Positions 7,780 through 61,385 of a DNA stretch of 64,000 nt are shown piece by piece. Origin of the DNA: Tachypleus tridentatus (lineage: Eukaryota; Arthropoda; Merostomata; Xiphosura; Limulidae); contig NC_134835.1 of assembly GCF_004210375.1 (NCBI RefSeq), forward strand, positions 73,004,447 to 73,068,446, in the 5' to 3' direction. The position numbers were made by a program, and so were the translations under genes. How positions within the stretch are numbered: position 1 is the stretch's first letter; each line of letters starts with the position of its first letter. The notes under the pieces are model-generated. The model was given only the letters and a program-made list of their open reading frames with translations, was not told the origin of the DNA and ran no database searches.

Positions 7780-8069
7780 TTAAAATAATCCGAGATAGGA
7801 TGAAAATATTAAAATAATCTCAAATGGGATGAATACATTAAAATAATCTCAAATGGGATGAATATATTAAAATAATCTCAAACGGGATGAATATATTAAA
7901 ATAATCTCAGATGGAATGAATATATTAAAATAATCTGAGATGGGATGAATATATGAAAATAATCTCAGATGGAATGAATATGTTAAAATAATTTCAAATG
8001 GGATGAATATATTAAAATAATCTCAGATGGGATGAATATATTAAAATAATCTCAGATGGGATGAATATG
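7780..8069. repeat. 29-bp minisatellite, ten contiguous units
   Basis: Ten units of exactly 29 bp (TTAAAATAATCTCAGATGGG plus ATGAATATA), with a few changes per unit and no spacers. It is a plain satellite-type array in noncoding DNA. Confidence 0.95.
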
Positions 8070-8911
8070 TTAAAAGTAAAAAAACACCATAATAGTCTCG
8101 GTGTAAGAGGGTTTTTACCACGTAAAGTCCTTTATCGGATTTGTTATGCCATTTTTTTACAGTCAAATGACTTATTAAGTGATTGTGACTCACGTCTTAA
8201 CGTGTTAAGACCAATCTGGTTTTAACAAAAGAGGATCTTGAGCTAACGATAGGCCTTATAAAAATTGGTTTCAAACAAACTTAAGGTTATGGATATTCAG
8301 CTCTTTATGAGGTCTATTTTTACCATTTCATTTGTGTCGCAAGGAATATTAACATATTTACTCTTGAAATTAATTTGTTAATTCCCTCTAGAGATAATTT
8401 ATATTTTTTTCGTTATAGAAATATCTATTATCATTCAAGAAGCTCTTCGTTTTTGAGTTCTAAGCTGTTGTTTTTATCATTTAATCCCAGTGATTTCAAA
8501 TCGATTGAATTATGATGATTAATCTACCTCTACTATGAAGTTATTAAAATGAGAAAGTGTAAATATATATTAATTATTCCACGTTTGCTTTGACCTATGA
8601 GAAAATAACACTTTATATATACTCATTCATCATAGCTGTAACTTATCAGTTAAATAAGTCTGTATAAGTTAAAGTAAACAGAAAATGTTACACGTACAGT
8701 ATATATCGGTATTCTTGTGGAACTTGTATGAACCTTCCATTATCTACGTGATAATTCTCATAACTTGTAGATCGATTATTTTTCATCAATGTTTAAAGGT
8801 ATGATGAAGGTCATATACAAATTGCTAAGTGGTCCAAACCTAACGACTCAAAGGTGGGTTTATGGTTGAAAATCCTGTGAAATTTGATGTAAGCTTAATC
8901 ACTGTATATAT

Positions 8912-10443
8912 CACTGCTGGCCAAAATCTTAAAGCCAATGAACATAAAGACAAAATATGCATTTTGCGTTGTTAGACTCAACCACTTATTTGAGTAGAAC
9001 TTCGAAAGATGACAGTAAGAAAAGGAAAAATAAAAATAAAAAGGTTTTAGCATTTAATAGGGAAAATGTGAACACTATGAAATTAGCCTTAATACTAGCT
9101 GGTCAAAAGTTTAAGACCATACTGAAACGAAGCGTTAATCGGTAAACACGTAAAGAAATTTAGTCATTTGTGTTCAAGCATTAGCGTTGTCAATATCTCC
9201 CACTGACATCTTCTGTGTTACATTGGGTAAAAATATGGTAAAAGCTAAAACGTTAACAGAGTTTGAACGTGGAAGAATTATCGAGCCGCAAAAGCAAGGT
9301 CTCTCTCAATGTGCCATCCCTTGTGAGATTGGGCTTAGCAAGATTGCTGTTGCAAATTTCTTAAAACACCCTGAGGAAAACGAAACGAGAATTTCAAGTG
9401 ATCGACCCAAGAAATTTTCGCCGGCGTTGAGCAGGAGAATTCCACGGGCTGTCCGGTAAGACACCAGCCGATTGTCGAACCAGGTTAAGGCCCTTACGGA
9501 CGCAGAATGCAGCTCAAAAACAATAAGACGGCATCTACGAGAGAAAGACTTTAAAAACCGTAAAGGTCTTTAAAGGCCACAACTCCTTCTACACCACGAA
9601 ACAGCTCGATTAAACATTGCTGAGAAGCACCAAACATGGAGCATAGAAAAGTGGACAAAAGTTTTGTTCTCTGATGAGAAAAAATTTAATCTGGATGGTC
9701 CAGATGGCTTCCAACTTTACTGGTACGATAAGGATATCCCATCGGAGACATTTTCTACACGACACAGTGGTGAAGATTTCATCATGATTTGGGTTGCTTT
9801 CTCCTTCCATGGAACAATGGAGCTTCAGGTTATACAGGGGCGTCAAACAACAGCTGGCTACATTGGCATGTTGAAGAGAGCATCCTTACTGACTGAAGGC
9901 CCTCGCTTGTGTGGAAATGATTGGATCTTTCAGCAGGACAACGCTGCAATCCACAATGCCCGCAGGACAAAGGACTTTTTCATGGTGAATAACGTGATTC
10001 TTTTGGACCATCCAGCGTGTTCGCCCGAACTGAACCTCATTGAAAATGTTTGGGGATGGATGGCAAGGGGAGTCTATAGAAATGTACGTCAATTCCAAAC
10101 AGTGCATGATCTTCGTGAAGTCATCTTCACTACTTGGAATAACATTTCAGCCAGCCTTCTGCAAACGCTTATATCGACCATGCCAAAGCGAATGCTTGCA
10201 GTTATTCGCAATGACGGCCGTGGAACTCACTACTGGGACCTCTTGTTGAGCATTTCCTACCCTGTTTAGGACTTCTTTTTGGTATGGTCTTAAACTTTTG
10301 AGCAACTGGTATTTAGGCTAATTTCATAGTGTTCCCATTTTCCCTATTTTACTTTCCCTTTTCTTATTTTCATCTTTCAAAGCTCTACTCAAATAAGTGG
10401 TTGAGTCTAACAACGCAAAATGCATAAGTTTTCGCCAGCAGTG
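8912..10443 (+). mobile_element. Tc1-like transposon with long inverted repeats, nearly complete
   Basis: The left end starts CACTGCTGGCCAAAATC and the right end mirrors it (CACTGCTGGCGAAAAC when reversed) next to TA. The inverted repeats run about 210 bases on the left and 160 on the right; the right one lacks a short internal block. Both inner ends share GGTCAAAAGTTTAAGACCAT-like sequence. The element encloses one transposase gene. A GT microsatellite (about 10453-10482) abuts the right end. Confidence 0.9.
9235..10269 (+). pseudogene. Tc1-like transposase with two in-frame stops
   Basis: Starts MVKAKTLTEFERGRIIE and runs in one frame to the stop at 10267-10269, 344 codons, the usual length for this family. 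The N-terminal helix-turn-helix region (GLSQCAIPCEIGLSKIAVANF) is followed by the DDE core: [12 protein letters not shown] (first Asp, about 9670), [11 protein letters not shown] (second Asp, about 9930) and [12 protein letters not shown] (catalytic Glu, about 10030). Only two stops interrupt the frame, both TAA where related proteins have Gln (near 9457 and 9570), which fits CAA to TAA changes. The start is chosen because MVKAK is the family start. Confidence 0.88.
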
Positions 10444-13819: not shown

Positions 13820-14691
13820 ATTGAAAGTCGGGTGCACTTACCACAATGGATCCCATCGACTAATTTATATGTTTATTTTCATAGCTCATTGTTGAAATAG
13901 CTTATAAGAATTGACTTTTCAAACACGGCATATAGCTTACAATTATAGACGTGTTCACAAAAACATGTGCCATATATTTGTATCAGTAATGGAAGAGAGT
14001 CAGTGGTGAAATTTAACAACGTCATCATTTCATAAATATTAATTCGTCAACGTCTTAAAACAATCATCAGATTGGTCTCTTTTTGTCTCTCTCTATATAT
14101 ATATGTATATATGAATTGTAAAGTTCGTGTTACATAATTATTTCACAAGCCTTATTCTACTATAATCTGTTTCTCACGTCAGCTACGTTGCACTGCTTCC
14201 AAGTTTTATTTTATGTAAGAGAATCTCAGAACTACAATGTAAGAGCTAGTGAAAAACTCTTCTATTATTTACGGTGTTAGCATATCATCATTTACATCAA
14301 TGTCTGAGATACATCCTAGTATAAAAAAATTCTTAGAAGCTTGCAAAACCTCAAAAGAATGCGGCATTAAAACAATTCGATTCTCTTCAGTCGACTCAGC
14401 AAATAACTTGATATGGCTTTGCAATAAGAAAACACACACATACACATTGAGACAAATATAGTAATATTTCTTTTTAGATATTTTACGTTTAAAAAGTATT
14501 AACGGTTTTCAATACATATATTTAAATATTTGATTAAACGCATATATCTTTAAAAAAGTAGAGTTTATTTTCATTTTAAATAAAGTTTGTATATTTTAAC
14601 TCTTCATGTAATAATTAATAAAATTTATTTAAAAACAAAAGTTTAATATACTTTATTTGTTGTGTCACAAAATAAATTGAAGTCACTTTAC
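13820..14691. other. Noncoding downstream of CTLD exon B3; possible 3' UTR signals
   Basis: No further CTLD is seen. On the minus strand AATAAA occurs near 14625 and 14565, just past the point where read-through from B3 would stop (14615). A CT/AT microsatellite lies near 14085-14107. Confidence 0.5.
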
Positions 14692-15099
14692 CTTCTATCA
14701 TGTCAATCTCACAAATCACACCGAATCCGTTACTACACCGATTGTCGTTTAACCTGTAGTTGTGTATTTGACTGATTTCTGCACAATTTTCCATGTCCCT
14801 GTAATTACTGAGGTTGCCATCACTCCACATTCCTAAAGTTTCAAAAGACGTTGGCACCAACTCACTGTCAATAAAACGCCACACACTTTCTTCAGACCGA
14901 TCTGACATTCCAACCCAAAATGCCTGTCCAGTTCCCTGGATCTCAGTACGAAGATATTCCCAAATTTCATAGCTAGCTATTTTAACTAGTTTTCCTCCTT
15001 CTTCTTCACAGAACAGCATGGCTTCAGTAAAGTTCTTCTGAAGATCAGGAAAAGCTCGATAACAGGAAGTATTGAAGAGGTCGTATCTTTCTGGACATC
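14692..15099 (-). CDS. CTLD exon B3 (long-form C-type lectin domain, sugar motif lost)
   Basis: The domain has 136 residues, GCPERYDLFNTSCYRAF at the start, and cysteines 2, 13, 31, 106, 122 and 130. WVGMSDRSEESVW starts at 62. Where the other domains have EPN, QPD or EPD this one has GNL (95-97), so classical sugar binding through that loop is unlikely; yet it is the only domain that keeps the ND of WND (LND, 117-119). Sequons are NTS (10) and NLS (96). A phase-1 GTAAAG donor follows. If it were not used, the frame would stop about 26 codons later next to AATAAA signals, so an alternative last exon is possible. Confidence 0.86.
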
Positions 15100-15387
15100 C
15101 TAGAAACAAAGTTTAGTTTTTTGCCTTCACTGCAATTTATGCGTTTCATATAGATATTGAACACGATAAATTGTTCCGTTTTAAACAATACGTTATTTGG
15201 TATGTCTGAAAGACATTTTATTCGGGCGTATGCAATCTTTCATAGGAAAAGAGAGTTTGAGATTGTCAAATTTTATCATTAGATTTAACACTGGAGTTTT
15301 GATTACATAGGAGTGACATAGATATTTCTTAGCAGGGAATAACGAAATAATACATTAAATATTTTAAACTTAAATAAGATTTGTTAC

Positions 15388-15807
15388 CTTCGGCACTGAG
15401 AACACGAAATTCTTGACATATAAAATTGTATTTTGATGAACACTCCGTGTCTTTAAGTTTCATCTGGTTCTGATCATCAATGACTACACAGTCTTGATCA
15501 TTAATTCCCCCATCGTCAGGCTCTCGTAAGTGCCATAGTTCTGGTATAAAGTCCATTTTGCTTCCGTCCACGTGTTTCCAGTCTCCTTCTTTCTGTTCAT
15601 CTGTATACCCAACCCAGAAGTCCTCCCCTTTCAACCCTCTTTCTTCAATCAAAGTTTGAAGACTGGCCAAAATTCCAGCATTAGCAATATTTGCTAAGTT
15701 TCCGTTGTATTGTGTTTCGCAAGAGCGGTTACTTTTCCAGAAGTTGGTTTTGTTGGTGTTTAGATAATAACACTTACTTTGATACTGTTTTCCTGTGTTT
15801 GAACAAG
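15388..15807 (-). CDS. CTLD exon C2 (long-form C-type lectin domain, EPD)
   Basis: The domain has 140 residues and is a paralogue of C1 of equal length, with identical cysteine positions (2, 13, 30, 107, 123, 131). WVGYTDEQKEGDW starts at 65, EPD is at 96-98 and LKD at 118-120. An NKT sequon sits near 19. The acceptor is TTTTCATAG and the donor GTAACA, the same donor sequence as C1. The first third differs strongly from C1 while the last third is nearly the same. Confidence 0.88.
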
Positions 15808-17167
15808 CTATGAAAATAAACAAGTTTGAGACTTAACTTCTCATGAAATAGAGATAGTGAGTGTAAAATAGAAAAAAAAACATTTTACGTTTAATAACCT
15901 CTAGAGTGTATAATGTTAATTGTCTCCTCTGGTGGAATAAACTGAAATAATCGCACAGCGAACTTAATTGTCTTTTAGCATGAATTCTCTGCCCATTATA
16001 TAAAATATTATGTAAAAAACAGGGTTTTACTTTCTTGCAAGAAAATAATGGAAACAAAAATGCGTTCTTCCTGCAGTCTAAATTAACATATATTGAAAAA
16101 ATTGTTAAAAGGGTAAATAATGACACTGATAATCAAATTTATTTTTAATGAATTCTGAAGAATCGAATTACCAATTTTTGTCGTCAAGCATCAGTACCAT
16201 AAAACTCCTATATAAGTATACCTAAACCTCGCATACAGACTAATGTTTTTATATAATATTAATATACAAACCTTATTATTACTAATCACTCTTTTTATCC
16301 GTTTTCAGAAATTTGTTATCATTCATATAGATATAACTTGTTTAAAAAGAAATACATTTGAAACACAAACTCACATTTAGACCAACGTGGTAACAAATGA
16401 GTGCATATAATCGAACTTATAATACATTAATTTTATTTCTATAACATTTGAAATATTAAAATTGTATAAAAATAACTTTTTATAACAGAAATATAGATTT
16501 GACTACCATTGGTCTATATAAAAAACACCTGTAATAATTTATAAACTTTTCTTCAGTATTAGTTGAGAGATATGTGCGAAAAGGGACGAAACGTTAAGGA
16601 ACAACTGAAATTGAATAATAACATTCACGTATTTACTAAATATAATTAAATGTTTGTGTAACCTCACTATTCAAAGATAACCATGAATTGATTGATACTA
16701 AAAAACCATTATAAATCACTCGGCATTGCTTATGCATCAGTCTTTTTCGAATTGGTAATTTTCCTCTTCTTATGGTCAGCATGTAAAAGACATTCAGGAC
16801 ACGGTTGTTTAACGACGGTAAAAAATAAGGCAGTAACATTAAACATACACCTACACTTATATACACAGTCAAAAAATTATTGGTTTTATTATATTAGGTT
16901 GGTAGGACTTCTCTTTCCCAGGTTATATTTAACGTTTAATCTTATTAGATTTTTTTAAACTTTCGCAAAAATAGAAGTTGTTGAAAAATGTAGAAGTGTC
17001 TAAACAACACACAGTCGAAAAATTTATTTTCGTATATTTTGCATAGTTAGCATGTTTTAACGTAGTTTAACTGGTTCTCATATAAATGATTGTCAAAAAA
17101 TGATTTTACATCATAACATGAAGGTAATATTTTTAAAAACATTCGAGTTTAGTGAAACTTAACTTAC

Positions 17168-17581
17168 TGTTTGAAGAATCTTGTGGTGCTTCACAGACTG
17201 CAAAACAGTTTCGAGAACAGATGGAGTCAGCAAGAAGATACGGATCTCCGCCGAGTATGGCACAGTTTTCAATGTGAGTGCCTCCGTTATCTGGTTCTCC
17301 ATCTAACCAGATTTCCGGTAAGTTTGGAACAGCTTTATTATCAATATCCTTGAAGTTATTCTCCTTTTCTTCATCTGTCATTCCTATCCATAAAGCTTTG
17401 TATTCTTCGTTAAAACTAGAAATAAGTGCCTGTAAAGCCTGGTATGTCTGTGCATCTGTTATCTTGACCAATTGGAATTCATGTTCCTCACAATGTGCTA
17501 GTGCTGTAGTAAAGTTATCATCTTTACCAATTGCTCTGTAATAGGTATTACCATCTTGGTAGCTAGTAATTGGCCAACCCT
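17168..17581 (-). CDS. CTLD exon A2 (short-form C-type lectin domain, EPD)
   Basis: The domain has 138 residues. It is a paralogue of A1, with the same WPITSYQDG opening, no N-terminal Cys pair, and the shared WLDG-PDNG and LLAD signatures. Core cysteines are 31, 107, 122 and 130, plus an extra Cys at 126 (SRNCFAVC). WIGMTDEEKE starts at 65. The sugar-motif position is EPD (96-98), a hybrid of EPN and QPD; the WND position is LAD (117-119). The acceptor is TTTTTTCAG and the donor a strong GTAAGTT, both phase 1. Confidence 0.88.
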
Positions 17582-18472
17582 CTGAAAAAATGAAAATGAC
17601 GCTGAATGGATTTCACGTGCTAGAAATATGATTACAGTTCTGAGAAAGTTAATAAAATAATTGCCCTAAAACTGAAAAGCTTTGAATAGTAAAGAATATG
17701 TTGTCTGAAGAAAACTGACTAAAAACAAAACTGAAACAAAATATTCTAAGTTTCAAGTACTTGGCTGATAAAGGTAGAAGAACTGACGCCAGAATTCCTA
17801 ACGTTTGAACTGTATCTTGTAGATTGCTAATCTAAGTATCTTTTTTTGTCATTGAGGCTATAATAATCCTCATAGTTTGAGGATATTTTAAATTCAAATT
17901 CAAATTCGAAATTACATCTATTTTAACCTATAAACTTTTGCATTATGTATATATCAAAAAGTAAGGTATTTGATTTAAAGATCAGTTATTTTATTTGGGA
18001 ATATAATTGTAATAATACTTGATGTAGAGCAAGAAGAACAATTAAAACTGGAAAATGTTAGGTAAAGCTATGTTACTTATTAAATGTCCAAATAAATATA
18101 ATTTTCCAGCATATATAATATAATAAACATTGGACATTCTTGAAGAGTTTTAAAGACATATCATCTAATTCGTGACTATAAACTAAATATTAAAATTACA
18201 AAATTGATTTTATACAAATAAAATATTATAATGTAAATTTAAGTTTATACAAAAATCAAAATGCTTTAGCAAAAATAATATCAAATAATCTTTCTGTTTT
18301 TTACGTGTCGATCCATATTTTGTTTTCAGTGTTTCGTTTTAAAATGCCAAATATATTGTTATTCATTCTAAAAAGATAGGCACAGTTTAAAAAGATATAG
18401 TTTTATGTTTTATGAAAATACATTAATCACTGAAACTGTTTATCAACTATATGGTATAAAATATACAACCAC

Positions 18473-18880
18473 CTTTATTCAAAGCTCTCTCACATATAAA
18501 TCCGTATTTCTCTTCACATCCTCGGTCACATAATCTGAAAGACAGCAGCCTGTCCATAGCAGCACAATCTCCATCAGGGTAAATATAGTCAGGCTGGTAA
18601 GGCCACCAAACATTCGCGCTCTTAAGTGAATTTTTCATCAGGTCTCCATCAACATAACGCCAGACCCCTTCTTGTTGTAAGTCTGTGATACCTACCCAGT
18701 ATGATTTCGATCTGTCTTTTATTGAGTAGTATAGAAACTGCCAGATATCGTAACTTACTACTTTAGCCAACATTCCTCCTTCCTCCTTGCAGAACATTTT
18801 AGACTCGTGAAATATTTTTGTGTCATCGTCAAATACTTTATAGCATTTGCCGTTGAAGAATCTGTATTCGAATGGACAAC
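18473..18880 (-). CDS. CTLD exon B2 (long-form C-type lectin domain, QPD)
   Basis: The domain has 136 residues. It opens with GCPFEYRFFNGKCYKVF (the long-form Cys pair at 2 and 13); core cysteines are 31, 106, 122 and 130, with an extra Cys at 118 (RLCDRGC). WVGITDLQQEGVW starts at 62, QPD is at 96-98 and LCD is at the WND position. CKEEGGMLAKV closely matches the same stretch of B1 and B3. The acceptor is TTGTTTTAG. The donor is GTGGTT if the exon ends at 18473; a GTTGTA three bases further on would keep phase 1 and add one Gly. Confidence 0.86.
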
Positions 18881-20030
18881 CTAAAACAATTTTTTGTAGT
18901 TATTTTATGCAGTAAGTGGTCATAGATAACAGGTATCACTGTATCATTTCATAATATCTATAATTACTGTTTCTAATATTACAAGGAAGATATAAATTTA
19001 ATAAAAGTTTATACTAAAAAATTAATTTAATTATAACAATGTTAGCCTAAAAATGGAAATCATTTAAAATTCGAAGAGTACATAAAAAAATCTGCTTCAT
19101 TTCTTTCAATATCTCTTGAAAATGTTATATATTGAGAAACATTTCGGCCGCTGTTCTTCTTCGAGTAAGAGATCCTCGTTAACAGACACTGGTACAGTCT
19201 TAACAGAACAGAGGAATCACGAATGTTCACGTGAAAAAAAAATTAAACCACACAGACGAGTAGCAGGAAAACACCGAAATAATTTAAAAGTTCGATAATA
19301 TTCGATGAGTATAAATAGATTGTTCTCAGTTGCTTTAGAGTTACAATGCATAAATTACTCCTAATAAGTATATCATATAAGTGAGAAAATGTGAAACCAT
19401 TGCTGAAACCATTAATGCACACAGTTGATCGCATCATGTTATGTATAATACAAACATATCTATTTATACATTGTTTTCTCAGAATCGCAGTTTTCTTATT
19501 GACTTTATTATTATATGACCAACCTACGCCTCTTATACTGTCTGAATTTTGCAAGATAATGTTGGGATTATGGCCAAAAATATTCTTAAATACTAAACTA
19601 ATGAAACAATGCATTATAATCTTTGTTAGTAGAAACGTAGAAAAAATACACTTAATTACCTATATTAATTTAAGTTTGACTTTCAGTTTCACTCTAAGTA
19701 TACATATTAATGTGATCGGAAGACAATATTAATTATTAGCCTGTTAAATCAGTTGGTATATTCTTGCATAACCGAAAACCATAAAAACTTAGGTTACTAG
19801 ACATTAGTATCACAGTAATATTTTAAATAATATTCAAAAAGTGACAATATTCTTTTTAGCTGCGACCTCTGTAACAATTTTAGTGCAGTAAACAGGTTTG
19901 TTTTATTCCGTTATTCGCTGTACACAATTCCAGAATGCTTTCCTTGGTGAATGTTTACGAGGATATTGATATGATATTGAGGATATGTGGGTTTTTTATA
20001 AGCTACTCATCTGAGCTCTTTCTACAGGTT

Positions 20031-24000: not shown

Positions 24001-25143
24001 TGGGACAGTGAATTCAAGTGAGTTTAGGAAACGAGTATAAGAAAGACAAGATTTTTTTATTAATTATTTTAGTTTAGTTTAGATGATGGAATAGCCAAGA
24101 TGTACCAGTAAGTCTCATGATATCCAAAACGTTAAGATGGACAAGGAGCGAATGAAACTCGACTTTTTCTCGACATTTATGTTTTTTACCAAAAAGTCAT
24201 TCGTATGGAAACTTCACTCAGACCAACAAATGTACGTTGCTGCTAAAATTTAATAGTTCAATGAGATTACTGTTAGTTGTATTTATTGCTGTTTGCAATC
24301 GAATATTTTTTTTATTTTTTTAGCCTAACATTATCCACAAACAAGTATACTGACTCTGAAGTGATCGTATAGCCGAAATGTTTCACAACAAATATTTTAA
24401 GTTTTAAAAGAATTCAAAATCATTCGTCACTTTCAAAAATCTGGTATTATTTTAAAGTATACATAAGGTCGTGTTGTTAATTATTTTTGGAATATGTTAC
24501 TTAAGTGTGCCATCAAAAACACTTTATACTAATGTGTATATATTAGTGTTAAATCTGTTAAACTAAAGATTAAACCGAATTAGTTAAAAAATAAATAAAA
24601 TAAAATAATGATTCAAATGGCTCTAAAATAAACAGAACTATAAACCACTTTAAGGCTATATAATATTTTATTATTAAAACAAACTCACCCTTTTCTATCT
24701 AATTCAGAGTTGCCTGTATTATGCATATTTTGAAATAAAATTGAATTACGCAGGTATAACAACAATTAAACGTTTCGGAACAAAATTACTTCAATCACTT
24801 CTTTAGTTTTAGTTTTAAAATAACAAAATAGTTTACATGCATTAAGATGATAATAATTTGATTTTTACATTATTTTCAGTGATTGTATGTATTAGGTCGT
24901 ACTGCCTTCTGGAGATACCACTCTTTGAACATGATAGTCACCCTAAGGATGTGCTTGGAGTATGAATATTGGATGCAGGACGAAATCTATACTATTACCT
25001 TACAAGTTATATTTTTATCATGTGAATACCTGCTCTGTATCACAAAACAACGAATTAAACCACAGCTTATTTCTATCGTCCACATATATAATATTGTAAA
25101 TGAACTGTGCAGGAGTTAAGATATAAATAGATCATTGTGTTAC

Positions 25144-25563
25144 CTTCTTCACTGAAAACACGCAACTCTTGACATATAAAACTATGTTTTGATGAACATT
25201 CCGTGTCCCGAAGTTTCATCTGATTCTGATCATCTATGATCACACAATCTTCGTTTGTTGATCCTCCGTCGTTTGGTTCTACGTTACCCCAGAGTTCCGG
25301 AACAAATTCGGCTTGACCCCCATCTATGTACTTCCACTGTCCTTCCGTTTCTTCGTCAGTTAGGCCTATCCAAAAACTTTTGTCTGTTTGTTTCTTTTCC
25401 TCTATGAGTTTCTTCAATGTCTTTAAAATTTCGATGTCTGGAACTCGCGCTAAATGTCCGTTGTACTCCGTTTGACAGAACTCTTCACTATTTTGAAAAT
25501 CTGTTTCATCAGTCTTAAGATAATAGCATGTTTCATTGATGTTCTTTCCATTTGGTTTACAGG
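25144..25563 (-). CDS. CTLD exon C1 (long-form C-type lectin domain, EPN)
   Basis: The domain has 140 residues, with Cys 2 and 13 (long form) and core cysteines 30, 107, 123 and 131. WIGLTDEETEGQW starts at 65, EPN is at 96-98 and LRD replaces WND at 118-120. The last third is almost the same as in C2 (see findings). A NET sequon sits at about 10. The acceptor is TTTATATAG and the donor GTAACA, both phase 1. A plus-oriented SINE starts only 41 bases upstream of the acceptor, leaving a short pyrimidine tract for splicing. Confidence 0.9.
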
Positions 25564-25603
25564 CTATATAAAAGAAAGTAACCTCAAGCTCAAAATCAAA
25601 CAA

Positions 25604-25857
25604 GGCCCGGCATGGCCAAGTGTGTTAAGGCGTTCGCCTCATAATCTGAGGGTCGCGGGTTCGAATCCCAGTCACACCAAACATGCTCCTCGCCCTTTCA
25701 GCCGTGGGGGCGTTATAATGTGACTGTCAATCCCACTATTTGTTGGTAAAAGAGTAGCCCAAGAGTTGGCGGTGGGCGGTAATGACTAGCTACCTTCCAT
25801 CTAGTCTTACACTACTAAATTAGTGACGGATAGCGCGAAATTCAAAATCAAACAAAC
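25604..25857 (+). mobile_element. SINE-A copy, full length, 41 bases from the C1 acceptor
   Basis: GGCCCGGCATGGCCAAGTGT head to CAAAATCAAACAAAC tail. The left flank TCAAAATCAAACAA repeats at the right end, as a target duplication or tail overlap. Confidence 0.93.
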
Positions 25858-26087: not shown

Positions 26088-26357
26088 AAAAACTAAAGCT
26101 TGTATACAGTATTGTAAAAAGTTTCAAATAGTTGAATATATTCGTCCATTTCCAATCAATGCTAAAATAATGGAATAATTTCACTTGCTTTATCTTTTTC
26201 TGACCTCAATTTGAGTACAAACGAACAATGTTCTTCACTATTATACGAAAACATTTTATTGAAAATCTGTCTCGGTTGGTTTTAAAATACAAAGCAGACC
26301 ATAACAACAGAAATTTCCAGCTATACTTCAAACCTTACCTTCTAAACAGTTACCTAC

Positions 26358-26765
26358 CTATTCGTTCATTAACTTCGGTTTCACAGATAAACCCTATGTC
26401 TTGTCTACAGTCCAGGTCCATGATTTTGAATTCTGCATTATTATCCATCTCGCAGCAGTCTTGATTGTTGTCATCATTAGGTTCACCTTCTTCCCACAAA
26501 TCCGCATCAAAAAAAGATTGTGGTACCTCAGTCCCGTTAATATAAAGCCAGGTTCCTTCTTGTGCCTGATCAGTCATTCCAATCCAGTAGGATTTATCAT
26601 CCTTGGATATGAGTTGTTTAAGAAATTCCCACAATTCTCTGTCTGGTACTCTAACCAACATTCCTCCTTCATTTTCACAGACACGTTTAGCTTCATCAAA
26701 TTTCTTTGTATTGTCAAAAACTTTGTAGCAGGTAGATTTAAACAGCGTATATCCCGACTTACATT
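26358..26765 (-). CDS. CTLD exon B1 (long-form C-type lectin domain, EPN)
   Basis: The domain has 136 residues and is long form, with the extra N-terminal Cys pair (2 and 13) plus core cysteines at 30, 104 or 105, 120 and 128; residues 104-105 are an unusual CC. WIGMTDQAQEGTW starts at 61, followed by an NGT sequon (77). An intact EPN (95-97), the mannose-type motif, lies in a stretch rich in Asp and Asn. The WND position is IMD (115-117). The exon is bounded by TTTTTACAG and GTAGGT, phase 1 at both ends. The opposite strand is also open over much of this exon but shows no protein signature. Confidence 0.9.
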
Positions 26766-26859
26766 CTGTAAAAATGATTAAAGTGTCATTGTATGTTTTA
26801 ATAATTTCTGCCAAGTTGTAACAAGAGTTGTTTCTGAAACAATAAACACGTATTAACAC

Positions 26860-28392
26860 TCTAAAAGTAACAAGAAATAAACATTATAACAACAGGTCTT
26901 TATTTTATACTGTAGATCATACAGAATGATAAAAATTATTCAACTTAAACAAGCAATCACACACTCAACAGCAAAAGAAACAACAGAACACATCGTAGGT
27001 ATCATATCCTGCATTTGGTCTTTTTCTAACTTCTGAAAATCTACGAGAATATGCAATATTTTGAGAAATATAGAGAGATACATCCAAATATATTACTATT
27101 GTATATGTCATTAAGGTTGAGCGATTTCTAGCTCTTATCTAGGTCATGGTGGTGTTGTAGTACTTTATCTATGGGGCATTCACCACTTCCTAGCTTTTGT
27201 GAAACCTGTGTCTCAAATTTCTATATATTTTATTTACTGGCTAGTTTATGCTCAATTATGGGAAAAGCATTATTTGATATACCAGCTACATTTATACATT
27301 GTAATAATAATAAATATAGCTAATAACTCTCTGATACATTTTGTGATGATTCAATATGTCTATTGACTACTTGATCACATTAGTTCAAGACGTAAAATGT
27401 TAAGTTGTAGCTGGAGATTTTCATAGATGTTTTTCTTGGAAATACAGTGAGCATTTATAGTTTTTGTGTAATTAAGTTCTTTGTGAGGAACTGCTGAGAC
27501 AACGAATCAGAATATCTGCCTGTTTGTTATTGTTGAGATGGATACGAGGCCTGATTTCAAACTAACGTAAATGTGAAGTAATCAAACGTCTTAAATGTTA
27601 TAGTTGCAGCAGGTGTAGTGCAACAAAAATGGAATACGAGCTGTTTTCAAACGTTAGCCGTAAGAAGGGTTAGGATATCTTCGTCTGAGGATTTCAAACG
27701 CCTAAAGAGAAGTAAGTATGCCTAACACCAACGGCAAAATGACGGATGTATATCCAACAACTTGTTCTCAAATGAGGAGGAAAGCGAGACGATCCGGGGT
27801 GGCCAGAACCTCAAGGATGCAAAGCCGGAGAAAGATCCGTGATCAGATAAAGAGCAGAAAAGTAGGAAGAATATCAAGGATAAAGTGAAACAGGATAACT
27901 AAAATAATATTAAATATTATGACCAGTGTGTGGGTGATTTACTTAGGTAGGATAGAAACACTAATGACTATTCGGAAAGAAAACAGCAAGGCAATTATTC
28001 CCTGGATTATTTCCTATACAGTCATGTACCTCATCTTCAGGTCTCTGTTTTTCCGAATCTCATGAGATGCTTCATTGTATATGGAACTAATTATTTCTTA
28101 TGGCTTTGAGTGAGAGATTACTTGTTAAATATTTGTTTGAATTAGACTTAAAACTAAAGATATACTCTATTGTCCGACTGATATCAATATATGTATAGCA
28201 TATTTCATACATAACTATCAATGGTATAAAAACACTCAAACTTATTCTTCTTATTTGAAGAATAAATTTTCTCGAATAATATTAAATAATAAAATATCAA
28301 TTACATCCACATATTGATATTACACTTAAAATACTAAAATGGTATGAAGCTTTTTAAAATCATAATTTTAAATCATGTTGCAGGTTTCTGTT
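26860..28392. other. Lectin intron A1-B1, central part
   Basis: Mostly AT-rich. A GC-richer patch at about 27640-27900 carries a 57-codon Arg/Lys-rich frame (27718-27888) with no family I recognise; it may be an old element. No remnant of a C-type CTLD was found by eye. Confidence 0.4.
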
Positions 28393-28505: not shown

Positions 28506-29049
28506 ATGCAAGGTTTCTATCATTTATTAACACATTCGACCGCGAGATTCTTTCAACCCCGCGCTCTTGATTTACAACCACATCAACTCTATTTCAATTA
28601 GAATTCACTGAAAATGTAAGTATGATATTTTGAACATTGAGTATGAAATAAGGACAACAACATTGTTGTTTTCGTTTAGAGATGTTTAGACTACTTCTCC
28701 TAACAGATTTATTTGTTATTTTAACTTCACAATTAAATATTTATTATCATTATATTTTAATTTGTTCTCTATCAGTAGATATTTTATTGTTTTGATTATA
28801 CTATATGTGATTGTTCTAATTGTCAAATCAAATAAATATCTAAATCTACACTAAATACATTTTTATAAAATGTAATAAAACTGACGGTGTATTTTAATGT
28901 CGATGAGCAATAATTCTATGATACAGCTTAGTACATCTGGATCTCCATTGATACATACATACATATAACTACTTATAAAGTTATTTATTTACTTTATTGT
29001 AAATAATTTAAAATATAAACCTTGCTTTTGCTAAAATCATTACTCTTAC

Positions 29050-29460
29050 CAAGTAATTTTTCCAGGGATGCTTCACAAATTGCACCCTCCGTTTTTGAAC
29101 AGTGAAAATCTGCCAAAAGAAACTCACTACTCTTCATCCGAGCGCAGTTATCTATATGATTCGCTCCATTATCTGGTTGTCCATCCAACCATAGCTCAGG
29201 TAGGTAAGGGGCTGTCTGACCATCTGTAAACTTAAAGACTCTTTCCTTCTGTTCGTCTGTAAGTCCAACCCATAATCCGTTAAAGGTAATATTCGAGTCG
29301 GAAAGAAGTTCTTTCAGGATCTGATGGGTTCTAACGTCCGTTATCCTGATTAGCTGATAGTTATGACTCATACAATAGTCACGAGCAATTTGAAAATTAT
29401 TATTATTTCCGATGACAATGTAGTTTACTTCACCATCTTCGTAACTGATGACTGGCCAGT
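29050..29460 (-). CDS. CTLD exon A1 (short-form C-type lectin domain, QPD)
   Basis: The domain has 137 residues. It starts with a WPVISYEDG segment, has no N-terminal Cys pair (short form), and carries the four core cysteines at about 30, 106, 121 and 129. The fold signature WVGLTDEQKE is at 64-73. The primary sugar-motif position holds QPD (95-97) and the WND position holds LAD (116-118), so the calcium site is changed but its Asp is kept. QPD is the galactose-type variant in classical CTLDs, but without WND actual calcium and sugar binding are uncertain. An N-glycosylation sequon (NIT) sits at about 57. The acceptor is ...AAAAG before ACTGGCC and the donor is GTAAGAG, both phase 1. Confidence 0.88.
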
Positions 29461-30276
29461 CTTTTAAAACAGAAAAAAAAATTTAAAGATAGATATATAC
29501 GACTGTTTTTATTTAAGTTTAATGCGAGTGTTAAGATTTAAGTAGATTACATAGCACGAGTGTTAAATGTAGTTATTTTTAGAAGCGACAGTTTATCATA
29601 AATATGTTTATGTAACTGTTTACGAATCACACATTATTTAGTTCAATGGTTGTGAATAGATAATTATTATATTATTGCGTTATGTTTCTAGAATCTTCTA
29701 ATTTTTTCTTGTTTTTCTAATTAAGTTTTATTTCATCATAATATCTAATAATGTTGGAACATTGTAGACCTCTGTCGAGATATAAATACGTGTCAATAAT
29801 TTAGTTCCATAGATAGATTTAGACTGCTTAGTTGTGTGTTTAACCATAAAGAGCATATAAGGACGATTTTTAAAGTAAAGTTATTACATATGTTATTGTA
29901 TTAACCGATTAGAGAAGATTAATTCGTCTTCTCCATTGCGTTCTAAAGAGAACCAGTAAATGTACTTTGATGAAAACGATATAATTCTTCAAAGCTCTGG
30001 ATAGAAATGTGATAGCACAAGGTGTAACAAACATTTATATACACATTTGACTTGTTTTAATATATTATTTTAAAATAAGTTGATTGCATGCTATTTGTTT
30101 ATTATTGAAAGTTATCGTCCACAAGTCACAAACACCTACTGTAAATAACCCAGTTCATACAGAAATTCTCACATTGAGTACACAAAATAAAGTACTAAGT
30201 ATGCTTTATCCGACTTTTAGTTTCATAAATGTTGATACTTTCATAATCTGTCAAGCAAAAAAACCTAGCTTAACGT

Positions 30277-31333: not shown

Positions 31334-31493
31334 TTTTCCACTATTCTTTGGTAAAAGAGTAGCCCAAGAGTTGGCGGTGGGTGGTGATGACTAGCTGCTT
31401 TCCCTCTAGTTTTACACTGCTAAATTAGGGACGGCTAGCACAGATAGCCCTCGAGTAGCTTTGTGCGAAATTCAAAAACAAACAAACAAACAA
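31334..31493 (+). mobile_element. SINE-A copy, head-truncated
   Basis: Starts in the body (CCACTATTCTTTGGTAAAAG) and keeps a long CAAACAAACAAACAAAC tail, the usual 5'-truncated form. Confidence 0.9.
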
Positions 31494-31614: not shown

Positions 31615-32030
31615 CTACGTATTCATACGTCGCGTCTACCTCGCAGACGTATCCCAATACAGCGTATAACTGGCGACAGAAGCTTTGAATCATAGACATA
31701 CAACATATTCAGTTTAACGCAGAGTAATGTCGCAACATAAACTGGTTGACCTACTCTCCAGATACTATCAAAAGAATCAGGAACTCTCTGGTTGTTGTCC
31801 ATAAAATTGCCAATTTAATGAATAGTACAAACGAGTAATGCCTATCCAATAAGAAGACGTTGTTTATCAGGTTGCGTACAAACGTCGATGACGATTCTTC
31901 AGAGATTCTCACTAGTCTGCTTCCCTTTGCTTCGCATTTTGTTTTAGCTCTTCTGCAGATCCTTCATTTCTTGTTTTTGGAATTATTTGATAACAAACGG
32001 AATTAAACAGGGAAAACCCTGAAGGGTCCA
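31615..32030 (-). pseudogene. Decayed eighth CTLD exon (B type) of the lectin gene
   Basis: This lies in the first lectin intron on the same strand. Reading the minus strand gives a B-type start (PSGFSLFNSVCYQIIPKT), then SAEELKQNAKQ ending at a stop near 31912. In the other frames follow a KLVRIS-like stretch (RLVRISEESSS), WIGI, a stretch like B1 (VPDSFDSIWRVGQP) and a YVCEVDA end like the last Cys block. At least two frameshifts separate these parts, and the length (416) is not a multiple of three as needed for the cassette. The donor is GTCAGA, weaker than the others. It is a former exon, placed between the signal exon and A1. Confidence 0.75.
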
Positions 32031-32225
32031 CTGGATAGTAGTAATAATTAAACAGGGATAACCGTGAAGGGTCCACTGGAGAGTTATAATAATTAAACAG
32101 GGATAACCGTGAAGGGTACACTGGAGAGTTTTAATAGCTAAACAGGGATAATTCTGAAGGGTATACTAAACAATAATAATAATTAAACAGGGAGAACCCT
32201 GAGGGGCACAATGGAGAGTAATAAC
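31999..32225. repeat. 45-bp minisatellite, five units: amplified splice acceptor
   Basis: Five units of exactly 45 bp. On the minus strand each unit is a pyrimidine-rich intron end (like TTATTACTCTCCAG) followed by the first bases of the decayed CTLD exon (TGGACCCTTC...CTGTTTAAT). The junctions fall at 32030, 32075, 32120, 32165 and 32210; the last has CCAT in place of CCAG. The repeat is open through 15-codon units (PSRLSLFN...). Confidence 0.85.
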
Positions 32226-32664
32226 ACTATCTAACACAATTTTTTTGTAAAAGTACAGAAAATGGCCATTATTCCCTTCAAACTTTGCTTTTGTGACCTG
32301 GATAATGAAATTTAGAAATTAACCTATTTTCTCTGTAAAAACAGGTAAATTTGCACATTTTCATTTACATAAGGTCTGAATAAAGCAACATATGAATCAA
32401 GTTTTACATGTATTTATACTAAAGTTATACAAAAATGAACAAAAATGTTTAGAAGTAAGTAGTTTTTCGAGATTTGCCACTGTAATGAAAACCACTTTCA
32501 TGTATCAGCCCCCAAATATTGTCTCCCATGACGTTTTCGTTATACGTTCCCAGGTCACAAAAGCAAAGTTTGAAGAGAAAAATTGGTCTTTTCCCTTTAT
32601 TTTAGCCATAAGCAATTGGGAAGTAACACTTTCTGCCCAGGAATAAGAATTTTATTACGTAGTG
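32226..32664. mobile_element. Inverted-repeat (MITE-like) element inside the 45-bp array
   Basis: About 440 bp inserted between two units of the 45-bp repeat. The ends share an ACACTA inverted match. Inside, a 24-base segment at about 32277-32300 (TCAAACTTTGCTTTTGTGAC...) recurs inverted at about 32549-32572. There is no transposase. An 84-codon frame on the plus strand (32392-32646) is probably chance. It looks like a non-autonomous DNA transposon. Confidence 0.55.
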
Positions 32665-32760
32665 TAATAATTAAACAGGGAGAAGTTTGAGAGGCACACT
32701 GGAAAGTAATAATAATTAAACAGGGAGAATTTTGAGGGGCACACTGGAGAATAAGAATAA
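32665..32760. repeat. Two further units of the 45-bp splice-acceptor repeat
   Basis: Same 45-bp unit as at 31999-32225, with AG junctions at 32698 and 32743. These units read TGTGCC after the AG, so they still encode Val-Cys-Pro/Leu-Ser, the Cys expected at position 2 of a B-type CTLD that is lost in the nearer units. They are separated from the other five by an inserted element. Confidence 0.8.
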
Positions 32761-33382
32761 TAATACATTGTGAAGTAAACATATCCGAAAACAAAAAATA
32801 ATGAAACACTCAGTTTACTTAGAAAACAACAAGATAACAAGTGGAAACAACACAAAAAACTTAAGTTGCAGTTGTATAGTTTGTATTACGTACGATTACC
32901 TGGTTCTAATCTTTGCGTTTGATTTAGTAACTAGATATAAACTACGTTTTATCCCACGTTAAGACTGTTAACTTCTACATGGAAGAACTAAAAAGGACCG
33001 ACATAGGAAATAGTTCTTATCAGAACTTGTCCTAAGACGATAGCAGATCAACAACCAAAATTTTGAGTAAAAAATATTCTAATTAATAACTAGACTTATG
33101 TGATTGTATAACCTGTTTGAAACAACGACAACCATATCCGATCGCTAAAATCTTACCTTGAGTATTAAAATAAATAGAAAAAAAAGAGACAATATAAATA
33201 AAAACACAATAAAATGGTTCAAAAATAATTATATATAATAATATATATATAATGGAAATAAACATATACAAAAACATGATACTCATTATAATTTAAAATG
33301 TTAGGAAAGAAAAGAAACACAATTTAATTGAGTTCAATTCGAAACACGATAACAAATAATCTTGAGTTCAGTTGGTAACGAA

Positions 33383-34293
33383 TACGAGAGCTGTTCAAAA
33401 AACACGCGGACTGACGTCATAAAACAAAATGTACTTTATTTAGAAGTTACAGGTCTGGGACCCCTTCAAAGTACTCTTCTCCCCAACGCACACACTTATC
33501 CCAACGGTATTTCCACTTGTTGAAACAGTCCTGGTACGCTTCTTTTGTAATATCCTCCAGCTCCTTCGTCGCATTTGCCTTAATCTCGGGAATCGTCTCA
33601 AATCTTCTTCCTTTCAAGGGTCTTTTGAGTTTGGAGAACAAGAAAAAATCGCAAGGAGCAAGGTCAAGTGAGTAGGGAGGGTGGGGAAGAACAATGATCG
33701 GGTGTTTGGCCAAAAACTCACGAGTTCTGAGGGCTGAATTTCGCAGCAACGCGGTGCATCTTCAATTTTTTGGTCAAAATATCGTAACAAGATCCAACTG
33801 ATATCCCACGCTCTTCAGCAAACTCCCTGACAGTCAGACGTTGATTTGCCCGCACTAGGGTGTTGATTTTATCGATGTGTGGGTCGTCAGTTGACATGGA
33901 AGGACGTCCAGGACGCTCATTATCTTCAATGGACTGTCGACCATCCTTAAAACGTTCATGCCACTTGAAACATGCCGTACGCTTCATAGCAACATCACCG
34001 TAAGCCGTGTTAAGCATAGCAAAAGTTTCAGTCGCAGATTTTTCAAGTTTAACACAAAATTTCACAGCAAGTCGTTGCTCCTTCAGGTCATTCATTCTGA
34101 AATCCGCCAAACGAAAAAATCGCACTTCACTTAAAACCGCGTAGCTAATACACAAATGAAGATATCTGCAATCGGGAAATGGCGTCGTAATCAGCTGATC
34201 TGTGCAAACCTAGCGACACCAAGCGGATTCCCCTGGAACCAACTGGAGCCGCGCAATTCAAACAGTCCGCGTATTTTTTGAACAGACCTCGTA
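33383..34293 (-). mobile_element. Mariner-like transposon, internally deleted (911 bp)
   Basis: Perfect-looking ends: TACGAGAGCTGTTC on the left and TACGAGGTCTGTTC reversed on the right, followed by a shared CGCGGACTG. The transposase is on the minus strand in two pieces. One is an N-terminal part with a helix-turn-helix (MNDLKEQRLAVKFCVKLEKS up to MHRVAAKF, about 34093-33750); the other is a C-terminal part (TREFLAKHPIIVLPHPPYS then LDLAPCDFF, about 33720-33620, ending VPDL at 33450). The middle, with the first two catalytic Asp residues, is gone, and the two parts meet out of frame near 33740. It is non-autonomous and lies within the first lectin intron. Confidence 0.9.
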
Positions 34294-55852: not shown

Positions 55853-56095
55853 ATGTCTACAGAATCAGTCTGCTTTATAATGACAATAGAATCTCTATGC
55901 CAGTTAACATCATTGTTATTTCTATAAAATCAGACTGCTTTAGAATGAGGATATAATCTCTATGCCAGCCGGCATCATTGTTATTTCTATAAAAACAGAC
56001 TGCTTTAGGATGACGATAGAATCTCTATGCCAGCCAACATCATTGTTATTTCTATAGGTTCAGAGTGCATCGTTGTTATTTCTATAGCATCAGCT
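55853..56095. repeat. 65-bp tandem repeat, about 3.5 units
   Basis: The unit contains ATCTCTATGCCAGCCAACAT, CATTGTTATTTCTATAAAAT and CAGACTGCTTTAG; successive copies start at 55891, 55956 and 56021. A further single unit lies at 54521-54583. Confidence 0.88.
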
Positions 56096-61078: not shown

Positions 61079-61160
61079 CCAAGGTGATTGTAATGCATTT
61101 TACTCAAGTCAGTATTTGAGAGATTGATAAGGGTTAAAGTTTTGATTTTTTTTAAATTAT

Positions 61161-61385
61161 AGAATTCAACGTTTAGGATATCGATATTATCCAGTCTGTA
61201 GTAAAAGCATTACTGTTAAAATCTAATTACCCGGTTTTCTTTAATTATGGTGTTCAGCGTTGAGAATGTCGATCTTCTCCTGTCTGTAGTAAAAGCATTA
61301 TTGTTGAAATCTGATTACCAGGTTTTGTTTAATTATGGTATTCAGCGTTACGAATGTCGATCTTCTCCTATCTGTAATTCGGTTT
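61161..61385. repeat. 88-bp tandem repeat, about 2.6 units, upstream of the signal exon
   Basis: Units start at about 61161, 61249 and 61337, each beginning with a form of G(A/T)(A/G)TTCA(A/G)CGTT and containing CTGTAGTAAAAGCATTA in the first two. The third breaks off about 64 bases before the ATG at 61449. It may hold promoter or 5' UTR sequence; no motif was recognised. Confidence 0.75.

Follow-up and report, generated by a model that had tools for sequence, protein, structure and literature searches.

The window analysed here is a stretch of 64,000 nucleotides of the Tachypleus tridentatus genome (contig NC_134835.1, 73,004,447 to 73,068,446), and positions are given within it unless another contig is named. 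In this genome 19 matches to Coagulin (PF02035) occur, a family not known outside horseshoe crabs, and 14 control genomes, the named ones being prokaryotes, have none. On the minus strand of the window a multi-CTLD gene has its open CTLD exons in the order A1, B1, C1, B2, A2, C2 and B3, seven in all, from 29.5 to 14.6 kb. The Lectin_C profile (PF00059) matches all seven: A1 in the open frame 28994-29482 (E 9e-11), B1 in 26350-26883 (E 4e-21), C1 in 25073-25624 (E 3e-21), B2 in 18447-18899 (E 1e-16), A2 in 17133-17612 (E 1e-11), C2 in 15329-15832 (E 1e-16) and B3 in 14615-15112 (E 8e-17). With donors picked by eye, each of these exons has phase 1-1. Upstream of A1 lie a degraded CTLD exon and, across its 5′ edge, a 45-bp tandem array. 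A translated search with the seven sister exons as queries found no further CTLD upstream of the array in the window at E 1e-3. Open frames were also seen at 33447-34209 (minus strand) and 9154-10269 (plus strand), and by eye they resemble what we take to be pieces of mariner/Tc1-type transposases.

The degraded exon, termed B0 here, extends from 31615 to 32030 on the minus strand with a phase-1 start at 32030, and A1 is the next CTLD exon downstream of it. B0 was assigned by alignment to its sisters, for which we wrote a frameshift-tolerant aligner and ran it on the minus strand of 31.5-32.24 kb with 200 shuffles per comparison. Across nearly the whole domain B0 aligns with the B-type CTLD exons: it scores 260 against B1, its best-scoring relative (shuffles: mean 57, SD 8, maximum 88), 192 against B3 and 156 against B2 (shuffle means 57-60, SD about 8, maxima 88-94). 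The match to exon C1 is weak at 108 and lies above its 200 shuffles, while the scores against A1 (84), A2 (90) and C2 (72) fall within or near the shuffled range. Among 32 CTLD open frames the top matches were B1 (z 25) and L013 (z 21), a paralog on the contig C1; four frameshifts are needed in the alignment to B1 and six in that to L013. Five of the six CTLD cysteines survive, as do the WIG motif and a donor-like site, read by eye as G/GTCAGA with 31615 as the last exonic base. Searching the genome of the animal with the DNA of B0 found only B0 itself, and a three-frame translation, with X at stops, run at E 1e-3 against the window and eight fetched stretches, matched nothing beyond B0 and the array. 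In the paralog on the C1 chromosome (L043-L045), a search upstream of its A exon found no orthologue of B0 at E 1e-3. Nothing shows current use of the pseudoexon, which is frameshifted.

TRF places the array in two blocks on the minus strand, 32001-32224 with 5.0 units (U1-U5) and 32665-32761 with 2.2 units (U6 and U7). Read in the sense orientation, a unit joins roughly the last 19 nt of the intron to the first 26 nt of the exon, in a register fixed by the sister and paralog exons. The AG is kept in six of the seven units, with its last base at 32031, 32076, 32121 and 32166 in the first block and at 32699 and 32744 in the second; U5 has lost it, at 32211. The positions given in the first-pass annotation, including 32210 for the lost AG, are the first exonic bases, each one beside the last base of its AG, and as such they hold. 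The AG of U1 sits where the acceptor of B0 is expected, in phase 1 and 2+33 nt from the CY codon, as in B1, B2, B3 and L013. The units fall into two similarity groups, U1-U3 and U5-U7, and differ from each other by about 19-22%. A Cys codon of the exon start is retained in U5-U7 and reads TAC in U3 and U4 and GAC in U1 and U2; U1, with GAC where L013 and U5-U7 have TGC, has thus lost the conserved cysteine of B0, and the five others are kept in the B1 alignment.

The likeness between the units and a CTLD exon start is best seen in the paralog. The exon of L013 begins, after its AG, with AATGCCCCTCAGG, and U5 has TGCCCCTCAGG at the equal position, with 23 of 28 bases identical; over U1-U7 the 28-mer of the L013 exon start matches 21, 19, 20, 18, 23, 20 and 21 bases in exact register. 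Scanning the whole window on both strands returned eight places with at least 19 of 28 matches, namely six units, the start of B1 and one unrelated place, at 31399 on the plus strand (21/28), and the units are therefore derived from the exon start. On sequence grounds we regard as established an origin of the 45-bp unit by tandem duplication across the phase-1 3′ splice site of a CTLD exon, which bears out the first-pass description of the minus-strand unit as an acceptor plus the first bases of a CTLD exon in phase 1, given the L013 register and the B1 alignment. A dispersed origin of the repeat was ruled out, as a search of the 2.17-Gb genome, with very common words skipped, returned the array alone (2/2 candidates). 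That an ordinary intronic minisatellite came to touch the exon by chance, with an accidental likeness between unit and exon, would be in keeping with a genome rich in minisatellites, where arrays make up 9.5% of the bases in 31 loci (23 around CTLD exons and eight of 10 kb). This is very improbable, however: in register, as many as 23 of 28 bases agree between the L013 start and a unit, a single unrelated place in the window reaches 19, and at six other exon edges, described below, the units are likewise built from the local edge. The prospect of a chance AG-plus-exon match, raised in the first-pass annotation as a test of its own reading, was ruled out by the register match and the window-wide scan. 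Other minisatellites were seen in the window at 7780-8075 (29 bp, 10 units, with CTCAG in the plus-strand unit), 55856-56056 (65 bp) and 61147-61376 (88 bp).

Between the two blocks lies a dispersed element of 440 bp (32225-32664), recognised from its copies, their alignment and an empty site, which splits the array into five and two units. Its ends are inverted (CACTAT... and ...GTAGTG) and it has TAA on both sides, a target duplication. A first look gave 3277 candidates, from which 39 further copies, 89-93% alike, were scored; by eye, the copy in the window lacks about 38 bp that the others have near the left end. Flanking bases are TAA here and, by eye, TTA at three of seven aligned copies, and the ends are CACTA-like; such TAA/TTA flanks are, we assume, those of PIF/Harbinger elements. 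When the element and one TAA are removed in silico, seven units remain in exact 45-bp register; the insertion thus came after the array. The earlier count of seven units holds, but the 440 bp between the two blocks are a later-inserted dispersed repeat and no part of the array. Compared with the majority of seven other copies, this copy differs by 4.7% (18/386), those seven themselves differing by 0.8-4.7%. A unit divergence of about 19-22% against 4.7% for the element fits this order of events, with the proviso that arrays and single copies evolve unlike each other.

Arrays over exon edges recur in this genome. Six further edges beside that in the window, three acceptors and three donors, carry them, in lectin and trypsin exons. 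At the CTLD acceptor L029 (C13:186972692-186973030, minus strand, locus positions 1861-2152) a 63-bp unit is repeated 4.7 times, each unit taking in roughly the first 47 exonic nt, and by eye two of four AGs are kept. At the CTLD donor L038 (C10:5194236-5194622, minus strand, locus positions 3-1531) a 74-bp unit, repeated 20.9 times, covers the exon end and its GT, and the array reaches the end of the fetched stretch. In trypsin exons, arrays verified by eye lie over the acceptors of L076 (92 bp) and L083 (28/64 bp) and over the donors of L073 (55 bp) and L080 (42 bp); L073, L076, L080 and L083 are on C19, C9, C14 and C3. A fifth trypsin edge match, L081 (14 bp x 2.0), was judged too short and not counted. 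L073 and L080 have similar exon ends (GWGKV..) and different periods, 55 and 42 bp.

As for frequency, an array over the acceptor was found at one (L029) of 50 CTLD exon starts examined, these being seven in the window, 23 in loci and 20 in regions out of 95 CTLD matches, many of them partial or tandem; seven loci that repeat window exons were omitted and exon starts were estimated from match positions. In L030 and L033 arrays stop about 33 and 13 bp upstream of the exon start. On the donor side one (L038) of 23 CTLD loci has an array. Edge arrays occur in four of 20 sampled trypsin exons, where the verified arrays cover four of 40 match edges, and in none of 20 kinase exons and 10 p450 exons, the latter with shorter flanks of 200 bases. 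We drew the trypsin, kinase and p450 samples ourselves from the stop-free entries among the matches listed, and the contrast of 4/20 with 0/30 is post hoc and rests on small, stop-free samples. Arrays cover 19% of the 400-bp flanks of the 20 trypsin exons, 8% of those of 21 CTLD loci and 0.7% of those of the 20 kinase exons; because 19% of the trypsin flank bases are in arrays anyway, a preference for the edge over the surrounding intron cannot be claimed. The periods at the seven edges are multiples of three in 45, 63 and 42 bp and not in 74, 55, 92 and 28/64 bp, which is about the chance rate. Acceptors are not singled out among the exon-edge arrays, nor are periods divisible by three, and the importance first attached to a 15-codon, frame-keeping unit falls away.

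Arrays of this kind are said to have been first described in amphioxus Adh3 by Canestro and coworkers in 2002, with units reportedly of 10-72 bp. Minisatellites of intron-exon boundaries were named mirages in that gene and found again in amphioxus globins, where, in the accessible part of the report, both edges are affected, many units, not all, keep the AG or GT, and lengths are unstable (PMC3087553). By its anatomy the array at B0 is a member of the mirage class: its units span the boundary, the AG is present in six of seven, and both edge types are found in the one genome, with acceptors in the window, L029, L076 and L083 and donors in L038, L073 and L080. It is like the amphioxus mirages as described there in its boundary-spanning units, in affecting both edges, in its few to several units and in their divergence and partial homogenisation (PMC3087553). 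It differs in coming from a horseshoe crab, that is, from another phylum, and in a unit of 45 bp compared with 150-160 bp in the globins (PMC3087553). The exon at hand is also dead, its array holds an inserted element, and it is known from the sequence of one assembly.

If the live exon had used the AGs of different units in frame, the gene would have encoded a family of receptors differing in length ahead of the CTLD, by 0 to 6 added segments of 15 residues. The unit does measure 15 codons, and the exon frame crosses the first block with one stop and the second with none before the element, ahead of the frameshifted exon. Coding tandem repeats together with alternative acceptors are moreover reported, in the accessible part of the source, for prawn lectins, the Rlecs (PMC7536079). 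The codons of the units differ from one another and hardly seem constrained, however, with pairwise differences averaging 0.15, 0.18 and 0.24 at the first, second and third positions, and three of seven edge periods divisible by three is about what chance gives. The loss of the cysteine in U1 fits relaxed constraint within the array and would also fit past use of an upstream AG. We consider such length variants improbable.

We built an acceptor model from 23 CTLD acceptors of the same genome (28 candidates, of which five implausible ones were dropped; the near-duplicates L019 and L020 are included). Under leave-one-out with this 23-site model the real acceptors score 6.4 on average and -0.9 at the lowest. 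The units score 1.5 (U1), -1.2 (U2), -4.4 (U3), 4.4 (U4), 5.3 (U6, the best) and 1.2 (U7), and U5, without its AG, has no score. Four of the six AGs are therefore within the range of the real sites, and U2 and U3 are below every one of them; all six AGs that had been called intact acceptors are present, but intact is too strong a word for these two. One more AG lies inside the array at 32138, a place that reads TTTAAT in other units; its score of 6.4 is above that of any of the six.

Six tandem AGs before a dead exon, four of them in the range of real acceptors, could suggest that the multiplied acceptors disturbed splicing and led to the loss of the exon, as the first-pass annotation had proposed. 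Yet the matches in all six other exons with edge arrays are stop-free. The four trypsin exons were sampled as stop-free, so only L029 and L038 are open independently of that choice; six open exons with edge arrays make such arrays compatible with open exons, the rate not being shown by them. In the accessible part of the amphioxus work, RT-PCR and Adh3 data suggest to its authors that splicing is regular and proceeds without interference from mirages (PMC3087553). Symmetrical 1-1 exons can also be lost by skipping without a cause of this kind. A causal part of the array in the loss of B0 is thus unlikely.

What we propose instead, and consider likely, is that the acceptor of B0 was duplicated to seven units and that the array is a nearly neutral mirage relic on a decayed CTLD exon. 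B0 is the most 5′ CTLD recognised in the gene of the window; a stretch of 45 bp spanning its 3′ splice site would have been duplicated in tandem and have grown to seven units, presumably by slippage or unequal exchange. The copies would lie on the intron side and be removable with the intron if the exon-adjacent AG was used, and the array would for that reason have been nearly neutral; while alive, B0 was probably spliced normally. The units would then have drifted and been partly homogenised, with the ancestral Cys codon kept in U5-U7 and lost in U1-U4, and the 440-bp repetitive element would later have split the array. B0 itself may have decayed at little cost: since the sister exons, with phase 1-1, are apparently symmetrical, the gene would have remained intact with B0 skipped.

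Several other systems share some of these features. In the prawn Macrobrachium nipponense the C-type lectins called Rlecs come, like that of the window, from arthropod genes whose tandem repeat is not in the carbohydrate-binding domain, and slippage and alternative acceptor sites are reported for them; the difference is that their repeat of 30/33 bp is found in exon 2, which is coding, and contributes to the protein, and no span of a splice site is seen in the accessible part of that report (PMC7536079). Intron gain by tandem genomic duplication in potato RdRp resembles it in setting extra splice signals in line within a gene, with a new intron reported in the accessible part of the source, whereas the present array is known from sequence alone (PMC4974935). 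A variable tandem repeat also occurs in the C-type lectin gene CLEC4M, but there it lies in the neck region, and the accessible part of the paper shows no tie to a splice site (PMC3261175). Our literature search, run without the term mirage, returned boundary arrays from amphioxus only, and cases from other animals may well be in print. The terms minisatellite and tandem repeat do not occur in the accessible main text of the horseshoe crab genome papers PMC7815833 and PMC7011531.

New introns and splice variants have been proposed to arise from arrays of duplicated splice sites, and the accessible part of the description of the amphioxus mirages suggests such a route for introns (PMC3087553). 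The array in the window is modest when taken alone. The point of interest is its recurrence in lectin and trypsin exons of a horseshoe crab, with 0/30 among the kinase and p450 exons sampled, and as one of seven edge arrays in a small sample it opens the question of spare splice sites in fast-evolving families. We suggest only tentatively that exon-edge minisatellites are recurrent in this genome and concentrated in fast-evolving lectin and trypsin-like genes, where tens of spare sites would lie by live exons and some may yield length isoforms or new introns. An arthropod genome with edge arrays on several open exons of two gene families would be a second, testable system.
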